32,752 nucleotides of DNA. Origin: Lentisphaerota bacterium. Its GTDB lineage: Bacteria > Verrucomicrobiota > Kiritimatiellia > RFP12 > JAAYNR01. The DNA lies in contig JAAYNR010000029.1 of assembly GCA_012520735.1 (NCBI GenBank), positions 1 to 32,752 of the forward strand, read 5' to 3'. How positions within the stretch are numbered: the first letter of the stretch is position 1; each line of letters begins with the position of its first letter. A program made the position numbers and the translations under genes. Below, piece after piece: positions 11,016-14,613 of this stretch. The notes under the pieces were generated by a model, which had not been told where the DNA came from, ran no database searches, and saw only the letters and a program-made list of their open reading frames with translations.

Positions 11016-11045
11016 TTGCTTTTTGGGGTGTGTTTGGTGCATAAT
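11016..11045 (+). promoter_or_regulatory. Candidate leu operon promoter
   Basis: TTGCTT (11016-11021) and CATAAT (11040-11045) are spaced by 18 bp, giving a start near 11052. This places the leader peptide and attenuator entirely within the transcript. If correct, the upstream ATG at 11056 would have almost no 5' leader, and the ATG at 11113 would be the normal leader-peptide start. Confidence 0.45.
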
Positions 11046-11112
11046 AGTGGTTCCGATGAAAAAGAGCTTCCATATAGATGGCGTATGCGGCGGCACCACA
11101 CAGGGTGCGGCT

Positions 11113-11166
11113 ATGGCATTCTTTTTCTCGGGCCTCCTCTTGCGTAGCCTATCCCTGTTGGTATGA
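11113..11166 (+). CDS. leuL: leu operon leader peptide
   Basis: A 17-residue reading frame, MAFFFSGLLLRSLSLLV, ends 110 bp before leuA. Six of its residues are Leu, in runs CTC-CTC-TTG, CTA and CTG-TTG, and a Val follows. Its stop codon (11164-11166) directly abuts the antiterminator strand. This is the classic design of an attenuation leader: ribosomes stall at Leu codons when charged tRNA-Leu is scarce. An in-frame ATG at 11056 would make a 36-residue version. No strong ribosome-binding site is seen for either start. Confidence 0.7.
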   Translation: MAFFFSGLLLRSLSLLV

Positions 11167-11229
11167 CAAGGGCGGGTATTGCATGATGCAATAAGAAAGT
11201 AATAGGAAAAAAGAGTGACCCGCTCCTTG
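11167..11229 (+). promoter_or_regulatory. Antiterminator of the leu attenuator
   Basis: CAAGGGCGGGT (11167-11177) pairs with 11218-11229 over 11 bp with only one bulged U (11224). The second arm is the same strand that forms the 5' side of the terminator, so the two structures exclude each other. A small palindrome ATTGCATGATGCAAT (11178-11192) sits in the loop between. Confidence 0.7.
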
Positions 11230-11258
11230 CTGAAGAGGCAAAGGGCGGGTTTTGTTTT
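11218..11258 (+). terminator. Attenuator terminator before leuA
   Basis: ACCCGC-T-CCTTGC (11218-11230) pairs with 11238-11250 (GC-AAAGG-GCGGGT) around a 7-nt loop. The stem has 12 bp with single-base bulges and is followed by the T-rich run TTTTGTTTT. It ends 17 bp before the leuA ATG. It is placed where it would stop transcription when the leader peptide is translated to its end. Confidence 0.8.
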
Positions 11259-11275
11259 ATTAAAACAAGGAGCAA

Positions 11276-12808
11276 ATGATGAAAGAGGCACAAGCTGGAC
11301 GAAGAGTTAAGTTTTTCGATACTACGCTGCGCGATGGCGAGCAATCACCCGGTTGCAGTATGAATCTGCGTGAGAAGCTGTTGGTAGCCTCGCACCTGGA
11401 CGCAATGCAGATGGATGTGATTGAGGCGGGATTTGCAGCGTCGTCGCCGGGGGATTTTGCCTCGGTACAGGCGGTAGCGGAGATGGTAAAGGTGTCGGCG
11501 GTGGCGAGTCTGTGCCGTGCGCTGACGGCAGATATTGATGCTTCATGGGAGGCATTAAAAAAGGCGAAACGGCCGCGGATACACACTTTTCTGGCAACTT
11601 CTCCAATCCATATGGAGTTTAAGCTGCGTATGACACCGGATCAGGTTTATGAACAGGCGGTGGCGGCGGTGAAGTATGCACGGAATCTCTGTGATGATGT
11701 GCAGTTTTCGCTGGAGGATGCGTCTCGCTCTGATCCGGAGTTTATGTTTCGGGTGATTGAGGGGGTGATCAAGGCGGGAGCCGGTACGGTGAACATCCCT
11801 GATACTGTAGGCTATGCCATACCGTCGCAGTTTGGTGAGCTGATTGCCAGTATTTTTAACGCTGTGCCGAATGTGGGTGATGCGGTGATTGCGGCTCATT
11901 GTCATGATGATCTCGGGTTGGCGGTGGCTAACTCTCTGGCGGCAGTGCAGGCCGGTGCAGGGCAGGTAGAGGGGACAATTAACGGCATTGGTGAGCGAGC
12001 CGGCAATGCGGCACTTGAAGAGGTGGCGATGGCGTTGCGGACTAGAGCTGACCTGTTTGGGGTGGAGTTTGGAATAGATACGACCAAAATCTACGCGGCC
12101 AGTAAGTCGGTGCAAGCAGTAACCGGCAGCAGGGTGCAAGCAAACAAGGCGATTGTGGGTGATAATGCCTTTGCGCATGAGGCGGGGATACATCAGCACG
12201 GGGTGATGATGAATGCCGAGACGTATGAGATCATGACTCCGGAGTCGATTGGTATACCGCGCAATAAGATGGTGTTGGGCAAACACTCGGGACGCCATGC
12301 CTTTAATCAGCGGTTGCAGGAACTCGGGTTTAATTTTGAGTCTGATCATGTTAAGGTGCTCTTTGCTGAATTCAAGGGGCTGGCCGACCGTAAAAAGGTG
12401 GTTTCGGATGCCGATATTGAGGCGTTGGCTCGCGGACTTGCAACGCAAGCCGAGGAGAAGGCGCGTCTGGAGCGGTTTGTTATCAACTCTGGCAACACAA
12501 TTACCAGCACCAGTACGGTTAATCTCTATTATGATGGACATACGGTGGAGCAGGTGGCGATTGGGTCGGGCCCGATTGATGCCTCGTTTAAGGCGATTAA
12601 TGCCATTATGGGCTTAGACTTGAAGCTGGAGGCGTTTTCACTGTCGGCGGTTACAGATGATACCGATGCGCAGGGTGAGGCCAATGTTAAGGTGCGTCAT
12701 GGGAAGCGGGTCTATAATGGACATGGCCTTTCGACAGATATTGTCGAGGCGAGTGTACGCGCCTATCTGGCGGCTATTAACGTGCTTTTGAGTGAACAGG
12801 GTGATTAA
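11276..12808 (+). CDS. leuA: 2-isopropylmalate synthase
   Basis: This 510-residue enzyme condenses acetyl-CoA with 2-oxoisovalerate in the first step of leucine synthesis. The HMGL-like TIM barrel begins with [17 protein letters not shown], contains the metal motif [13 protein letters not shown], the [14 protein letters not shown] motif and IHQHGV. The C-terminal LeuA allosteric domain begins around residue 385. Length fits bacterial LeuA, and leuC and leuD follow, which argues against citramalate synthase. AAGGAG at 11267-11272 fits the second ATG (11279, 6 nt away) slightly better than the first. An attenuator lies directly upstream. Confidence 0.95.
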
Positions 12809-12823: not shown

Positions 12824-14086
12824 ATGGGAATGACAATGACACAAAAGATACTGGCCCGTGCGGCCGGTTTGGAGAGTGTGGCCGCAGGGGAGCTGGTTGA
12901 GGCTAAACTCGACTTAGTGTTGGGCAATGATATCACCGCACCGGTGGCGATTAATGAGTTCGCCAAGACCGGTGCGGCGGAGGTCTATGACCGGGAGAAG
13001 GTGGCGCTGGTGCCGGATCATTTCACGCCCAACAAAGATATTAAGGCGGCAGAACAGAGTAAAAAAATGCGTGATTTTGCCGGTAAATACGGGATCACCA
13101 ATTTCTTTGATACCGGAGAGGTCGGTATTGAGCATGTACTGTTGCCGGAGCGGGGTTTGGTGGGACCGGGCGATGTGATTATCGGGGCCGACAGCCACAC
13201 CTGTACTTATGGAGCTTTGGGGGCGTTTTCGACTGGTGTGGGGTCGACTGACATGGCAGCCGGCATGGCACTGGGAACAGCGTGGTTTAAGGTGCCGGCG
13301 GCGATTCGCGTGGAGCTGGTGAATCACTTTAGCGACAAGTGGGTCTCGGGGAAGGATGTGGTGTTGCACCTGATCGGGCTGATTGGCGTTGATGGTGCAC
13401 TTTATCAGTCGCTGGAATACCGAGGCGACGGAGTAGCGGCACTAACAGTTGATGATCGTCTCTGCATAGCCAATATGGCGATTGAGGCTGGTGCCAAAAA
13501 CGGTATTTTTGAGGTAGATGAGGCGACCCGCGCCTTTTTGCGTGAGGTAGGGCGGGATCAATACCGTGAAGTCACGGCCGATAGCGATGCCGTTTATGAG
13601 CGGACAGTGAGGATTGATCTGGCAGAACTGAGTTCTACGGTGGCATTCCCTCACTTGCCGAGCAACACCAGGCTGGCCAGGGAGTCGGGCGAGATTAAGA
13701 TCGATCAGGTGGTGATAGGGTCGTGCACGAATGGGCGTTTGAGTGATCTGCGTGTGGCGGCACAGTTGCTGAAGGGGCGGCGGGTGGCAAAAGGTGTGCG
13801 CTGCATTGTGATCCCGGCGACCCAGAAGATCTATCTTGAGGCGATGCGTGAAGGGTTGCTGGAGATATTTATCAATGCCGGGGCGGCGGTTTCGACCCCG
13901 ACCTGCGGACCGTGTCTGGGTGGTCACATGGGGATACTGGCCAAAGGAGAGCGAGCGGTCTCCACAACCAACCGCAACTTTGTGGGCCGTATGGGGCACC
14001 CGGAGTCGGAGGTTTATCTGACTAATCCGGCAGTAGCGGCGGCCTCAGCTATTACGGGTCGCATTACTGATGCCAATGAGATATAA
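12824..14086 (+). CDS. leuC: 3-isopropylmalate dehydratase, large subunit
   Basis: This 420-residue aconitase-family protein matches the shorter LeuC/HacA type. The [4Fe-4S] ligands are seen in [13 protein letters not shown] (about residues 298-310) and in [11 protein letters not shown] (about 359-369). An N-terminal [22 protein letters not shown] motif (written here in family terms) marks the substrate region near residue 122. With LeuD it isomerises 2- to 3-isopropylmalate. AGGGGG at 12811-12816 lies 7 nt before the chosen ATG; in-frame ATGs at 12830 and 12839 are possible. leuC starts 15 bp after leuA. Confidence 0.95.
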
Positions 14087-14115: not shown

Positions 14116-14613
14116 ATGAATGCAAAAGGGAGAGTGTTTCGTTACGGTGACAATGTTGATACCGACGTGATTATTCCGGCGCGTTATTTGACTACTTCAG
14201 ATGCTGCTGAATTAGCGTTGCACTGCATGGAGGATATCGACAAAGATTTTGTTAAAGAGGTGCGGGCAGGCGACATAATTGTGGCTGATGCTAATTTCGG
14301 GTGTGGGTCGTCACGTGAGCATGCCCCGATAGCGATAAGGGCATCAGGGATTGCCTGTGTGATTGCCGCCAGCTTTGCCCGGATTTTTTATCGCAACGCG
14401 ATAAATATTGGCCTGCCGATTCTGGAGTCGCCGGAGGCGGCAGCAGGGATCAAGGCCGGCGATACGGTTGCGGTCGATTTTGACAGCGGGGTTATTGTAA
14501 ACGAGACCAGCGGGGCGTCGTTTAAGGCGGTGCCGTTTCCGGTGTTTATGAAAAACCTGATTGCACAGGGTGGCCTGGTCAATTATGTTAAAACTAAACA
14601 GGCAGGAGTTTGA
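14116..14613 (+). CDS. leuD: 3-isopropylmalate dehydratase, small subunit
   Basis: This 165-residue swivel-domain subunit begins with [16 protein letters not shown] and carries the [17 protein letters not shown] motif (about residues 54-70), both diagnostic of LeuD. It partners LeuC. AAAGGTG sits 8 nt before the ATG, and leuC ends 29 bp upstream. No leuB (3-isopropylmalate dehydrogenase) is in this window, so the third step is encoded elsewhere. Confidence 0.95.

Follow-up and report, generated by a model that had tools for sequence, protein, structure and literature searches.

Ribosome-mediated attenuation is a textbook mechanism. Among the described systems closest to the locus considered here, the LEU element of Actinobacteria lies upstream of leuA and forms a pseudoknot in which Leu codons are paired to the Shine-Dalgarno sequence, with no terminator (PMC1262725). 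In mycobacteria, attenuator ORFs can be leaderless, according to work cited in a study of the ilvB1 upstream ORF (uORF) attenuator of Mycobacterium tuberculosis (PMC13236596). Until Naville and Gautheret added a his example from Firmicutes in 2010, Proteobacteria and Actinobacteria were, by their statement, the only groups with known amino-acid leader-peptide systems (PMC2965389).

How does the leader upstream of leuA in a PVC-type genome compare with these systems? By all the sequence evidence, the element is a leucine attenuator of an already known type, and it very probably acts as a ribosome-mediated transcription attenuator that couples the expression of leuA-leuC-leuD to charged tRNA-Leu. 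An ORF, its Leu codons, three competing helices and a terminator can all be read from the window (the whole 32.7-kb stretch of DNA that was analysed; Table 1), and the same layout recurs before leuA in the lineage. The first-pass annotation had placed the attenuator in front of leuA, and NCBIfam assignments of leuA, leuC and leuD to the genes downstream agree with it. The genes of the cluster follow in this order without leuB; upstream of the element, on the opposite strand, lie dnaK and groEL.

Table 1. Coordinates of the leader features and of the genes downstream of them in the window
Feature	Position	Strand	Basis or remark
Promoter-like TTGCTT-18-CATAAT	11016-11045	+	ATG-anchored scan, consensus match only
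Leader ORF, 36 codons, MKKSFHIDGVCGGTTQGAAMAFFFSGLLLRSLSLLV	11056-11166	+	Stop TGA 11164-11166; sequence, ATG position relative to promoter
Leu control region CTC CTC TTG CGT AGC CTA TCC CTG TTG	11134-11160	+	Six Leu codons
Strand 1, 5' arm of 1:2 hairpin; Leu codons 27-29 and part of the CTA codon	11132-11149	+	Fold of 11130-11180, -17.0 kcal/mol
Strand 2, CAAGGGCGGGT	11167-11177	+	Abuts the stop codon; alternative partners are strands 1 and 3
Palindrome-like TATTGCATGATGCAATA between strands 2 and 3	11177-11193	+	Small hairpin stacked on antiterminator in folds
Strand 3, ACCCGCTCCTTG	11218-11229	+	Common to antiterminator (2:3) and terminator (3:4)
Intrinsic terminator hairpin (3:4)	11217-11251	+	-21.5 to -22.0 kcal/mol, by stretch folded
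Terminator U-tract TTTTGTTTT	11250-11258	+	Sequence; ends 17 nt before leuA
Shine-Dalgarno AAGGAG of leuA	11267-11272	+	Sequence
leuA, 2-isopropylmalate synthase (ATG 11276 or 11279)	11276-12808	+	NCBIfam NF002086, TIGR00973 above cut-off
leuC, 3-isopropylmalate dehydratase large subunit	12824-14086	+	TIGR02083 above cut-off
leuD, 3-isopropylmalate dehydratase small subunit	14116-14613	+	TIGR02084 above cut-off

How long is the leader peptide? The frame with the C-terminal end ...MAFFFSGLLLRSLSLLV closes at TGA 11164-11166, and Leu accounts for six of its final ten codons (CTC, CTC, TTG, CTA, CTG and TTG, starting at 11134, 11137, 11140, 11149, 11155 and 11158). When all stop-terminated frames of at least 17 codons on both strands of the window were surveyed (n = 993), this frame alone had at least six Leu among its last eleven residues, the number given in the first-pass annotation. 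A short ORF with codons for the product of the operon, which marks ribosome-mediated attenuators, is thus present as a Leu-rich frame upstream of leuACD. The leader had been described as having 17 residues; an ORF of this length does run from an internal ATG at 11113, but it is the C-terminal part of a frame that is open from ATG 11056 and has 36 codons. The 17-codon ORF has been set aside as the full leader, which is probably better taken as 36 codons, because ATG 11056 fits better with the promoter spacing and with relatives, whose leaders are longer.

The promoter-like sequence was found by a scan anchored at the ATG; it is not listed by a consensus promoter scan of the window, the rules of which are stricter. 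Its -10 element ends 10 nt upstream of ATG 11056, so that transcription would begin around 11052, 4 nt ahead of that ATG, and the leader mRNA would have almost no 5' UTR. A Shine-Dalgarno sequence is absent at this ATG, and leaderless initiation is predicted there from the promoter spacing. The spacing recurs in many relatives: of the 66 leaders with a scorable promoter, 37 have a -10 element whose end lies 6-11 nt upstream of the ATG. In a second group of leaders (family f3, MNTNLLL type), it lies about 22-32 nt upstream.

Folding of the leader gives three mutually exclusive helices, with energies of -17.0 (1:2), -20.4 (2:3) and -22.0 kcal/mol (3:4). The 1:2 hairpin (11132-11177), which is new relative to the first-pass annotation, has CTC-CTC-TTG in its 5' arm and strand 2 in its 3' arm; together with the antiterminator and the terminator, it provides the window with all three classical helices. 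In the antiterminator, strand 2, which resembles the 3' arm of the terminator, is joined to strand 3 by 11 bp with one bulge. The energy of this duplex is -18.6 kcal/mol, compared with a mean of -10.4 for 5000 dinucleotide shuffles of the intervening stretch that were scored for binding the strand 3 arm; 13 of the shuffles were as good. An antiterminator strand abutting the stop codon, and a partner that doubles as the 5' arm of a terminator ending 17 bp before leuA, had both been proposed, and both were recovered, the latter as the stem at 11217-11251 with its U-tract. The leader ORF and the first gene are separated by this intrinsic terminator (11217-11258, -22 kcal/mol plus U-tract), and the antiterminator is exclusive with it in pairing and position; the distances suggest that a ribosome would mask strand 2. 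The unconstrained fold favours the terminator with the 1:2 hairpin. When only the RNA between the leader end and 11235 is folded, as it would exist before synthesis of strand 4, the antiterminator comes out best. The palindrome-like TATTGCATGATGCAATA would shorten the antiterminator loop.

The scheme predicted from this arrangement includes a promoter, leaderless initiation, stalling, masking and a response to leucine. RNA polymerase would start near 11052, and a ribosome would load at the nearly leaderless ATG 11056. If leucyl-tRNA were sufficient, the ribosome at the stop codon (11164) would cover strand 2, strand 3 would pair with strand 4, and transcription would terminate at the U-tract near 11258. 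If leucyl-tRNA were scarce, the ribosome would stall at CTC-CTC-TTG or at CTA, occupying strand 1 and breaking the 1:2 hairpin; strand 2, thus freed, would pair with strand 3, the terminator would be blocked and leuACD would be transcribed. If no ribosome were loaded, 1:2 and 3:4 would form and transcription would stop. A ribosome stalled at the last two Leu codons would mask part of strand 2, which lies very close to them.

Could the leader control translation in place of termination, or on top of it? As has been proposed for the actinobacterial LEU element, the structure of the leader would then hide or expose the Shine-Dalgarno sequence of leuA. A portion of strand 3, GCTCCTTG (11222-11229), can form 8 bp with the region of this Shine-Dalgarno sequence, CAAGGAGC (11266-11273), at -14.8 kcal/mol, and therefore 2:3 pairing would also free the Shine-Dalgarno sequence. 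However, strand 3 contains CTCC, so some complementarity to any Shine-Dalgarno sequence is expected. The stem of -22 kcal/mol with an immediate U-tract is an intrinsic terminator and outcompetes the pairing of strand 3 with the Shine-Dalgarno region, and a terminator with a U-rich tail is retained before leuA in relatives. Translational control as the explanation of the leader is very unlikely. Transcription attenuation is the preferred reading; through the complementarity of strand 3 to the Shine-Dalgarno region, a second, translational layer is possible.

Is the leader of the window an isolated case? In the order, 103 of 162 genomes yielded a LeuA, as did 55 of 145 sampled across the phylum, and the stretches upstream were extracted. 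A strict rule (an ORF from ATG of 10-60 codons with at least five Leu in 12, then a hairpin of -14 kcal/mol or better and a T-rich tail) was satisfied before leuA in 69 of 100 stretches from the order, compared with 1 of 300 shuffles. In the rest of the class this was the case for 7 of 22 stretches (shuffles, 0 of 66), and in the rest of the phylum for 0 of 10 (shuffles, 0 of 30). Under a looser rule that allowed four Leu, judged by eye, the pattern was seen in about 15 of the 22 class stretches. The leader peptides of relatives include the types MKRKDFALGLRLSLLPLLGGGS..., MNTNLLLNGLLLLALTRRGAVLLV, ...LRLTGLWLLCGHG... and MKANIIVSQFSSRLTNLALLS, and long leaders like that of the window also occur, for example MKAHFVHTVRLSRATGVGQGARLPGMILGLLLPGLLGLIIPSGRIGLA. 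Judged by these counts, the element of the window is one of many in its lineage and not isolated.

A search for the leader DNA of the window in 20 relatives matched only the window's own genome, and the comparison with relatives was therefore made by architecture. Two genomes of the same family (L002 = G002 and L003 = G001; LeuA 78-80% identical) lack both a leader ORF and a terminator in front of leuA, and they retain a promoter-like sequence upstream of leuA similar to that of the window. Since these genomes are without the element and the leader DNA is unmatched, the window's copy is not open to a test of conservation at close range. The element is also missing in most genomes of genus f5 g6 and in several of f3. 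Either the sister genus has lost the element, or the genus of the window has gained it anew. Leader and alternative pairing are thus conserved as an architecture in the order and are absent in the two nearest genomes.

The competing strand was compared in 87 leader-terminator pairs, using the region from after the first Leu codon against the 5' arm of the terminator. In 54 pairs the best duplex surpassed its shuffles at p<0.05, and in 25 at p<0.01; as the sequences compared are related and many of them rich in G+C, this result is taken as support and not as a probability. Strand 2 of relatives usually lies in the final 30 nt of the ORF or just past the stop, where a ribosome terminating at the leader stop would cover it. 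The sequences of the strands differ wholesale between families and complementarity is retained: the pair CAAGGGCGGGT / ACCCGCTCCTTG of the window is replaced by GCGGANGGCC / GGCCTCCGC in f4, by CGCGGGGC / GGCTCCGC and CCACGGGA / ACTCCCGTGG in f3, and by GCGGTGGGT / ACCCACCGC elsewhere in the class. The first-pass annotation had made its reading of a leucine attenuator before leuA depend on the conservation of the Leu codons and of the alternative pairing in relatives. Both were found, with the leaders in 69 of 100 order genomes and the competing strand in most; Leu-rich leaders and terminators across the order, the 54 of 87 pairs and leuACD downstream thus support that reading.

Covariation in related genomes, which had been proposed as a check, was followed in an alignment of 14 sequences of family f4. 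In the terminator, pairing is complete (100%) and two changes are two-sided; in a hairpin across the late Leu codons, pairing stands at 98% and 12 cells are two-sided, a value reached by 0 of 500 shuffles. Both covary. The 2:3 helix is 84% paired, compared with 41-51% for slid partners, but it is kept without two-sided changes in the 14 sequences, and covariation is not claimed for it for this reason. A separate feature of the leader ORFs of f4, f5 and f3 (for example L025, L009, L007 and L011) is the nearly invariant CGACTTA, composed of the codons CGA-CTT plus A. It joins a rare Arg codon to one Leu codon and is conserved at the nucleotide level amid varying surroundings.

Do other biosynthetic genes have attenuators of this kind? 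The window's own genome contains a candidate upstream of ilvB (L146, G000:C301), with an ORF, MFSHHSNLSTFKAVLQSSLMLLVVVAVIIITVGAEYGLV, at -241 to -121 relative to the ilvB family match and then a U-tailed terminator, GCACCCACCGC...GCGGTGGGTTTTTT (ACCCACCGC/GCGGTGGGT). A promoter-like TTGACG-17-TAAAAT ends 7 nt before the leader ATG, and GGTGGGTGC within the ORF duplicates the 3' arm of the terminator. Like the leu element, the candidate thus has cognate codons in its leader, a strand 2 that copies the terminator 3' arm and a promoter close to the ATG; unlike it, strand 2 lies inside the ORF and not past the stop, and the codons are rich in Leu, Val and Ile. A similar ilvB terminator is present in 4 of 7 other genomes examined. 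A candidate trp attenuator was found in a genome of the same order (L156, G009:C66), where the ORF MQHTHDKQDWWWRNRYSRSR upstream of trpE is followed by a strong terminator. No hisG attenuator was found in eight genomes, and none is visible at trpE, the citramalate-synthase-like gene or the leuB-like gene of the window's genome.

The ilvB candidate bears on a further explanation, in which the terminator is real and the leader only fixes a constant level of read-through, for example by poor translation of the leader, with no response to leucine. ATG 11056 has no Shine-Dalgarno sequence and leaderless initiation there is a prediction, and the sister genus manages without the element, as this explanation would allow. 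However, Leu richness before leuA recurs across the order far above chance, whereas the leader before ilvB in the window's genome is enriched for Leu, Val and Ile, and this combination is hard to account for without codon sensing; constant read-through is likewise very unlikely. A chance neighbourhood of a Leu-rich frame, a complementary stretch and an unrelated terminator would agree with the absence of the element from the nearest relatives of the window, but it can practically be dismissed given the uniqueness of the frame in the window (1 of 993), the 13 of 5000 shuffles that match the antiterminator, and the survey of the order (69 of 100 stretches against 1 of 300 shuffles).

It is fairly probable that ribosome-mediated attenuators govern the synthesis of branched-chain amino acids, and in some places also that of tryptophan, throughout a class-level PVC-type lineage, and that their leader peptides are often leaderless and begin at the transcription start. 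No description of attenuators in this bacterial group was found in the open literature searched, including a search for 'Kiritimatiell' with 'leader peptide', most subscription journals being outside this search; their lineage-wide presence in PVC-type bacteria thus appears undescribed so far. A leu family that spans the lineage and has an ilv counterpart widens the known range of leader-peptide systems, and such attenuators imply transcription-translation coupling in the PVC-type group. The leaders also form a natural series in which three competing strands keep their complementarity while their sequences turn over. Interest in the element is raised by its recurrence across the lineage and by its predicted leaderless start.

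How close is the element to the systems already described? In the window and 16 relatives, no Rfam family scored above threshold for the leader. The window was unmatched by the Leu_leader model (RF00512) even at E up to 5, and one relative scored 30.8 bits against a gathering threshold of 50; membership in RF00512 is rejected by the model score. The enterobacterial leu attenuator (leuL-leuABCD, RF00512) has in common with the window a Leu-rich leader peptide, alternative hairpins, a U-tailed terminator and an operon in which leuA is first. By contrast, the window belongs to another phylum, has no sequence or model match, uses mixed Leu codons including common ones, has a predicted leaderless start and has a cluster without leuB. 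With the actinobacterial LEU element it shares a leader ORF with a run of Leu codons before leuA (PMC1262725); assignment to this element is rejected, as a terminator is present and the Leu codons pair weakly with the Shine-Dalgarno sequence, at only -7.4 kcal/mol. Compared with the leaderless attenuator ORFs of mycobacteria, the leaderless start is here a prediction from promoter spacing. The ilvB1 uORF attenuator of M. tuberculosis (PMC13236596) differs from the window in phylum, gene and sequence, and shares with it branched-chain codons in an upstream ORF and an antiterminator/terminator switch.
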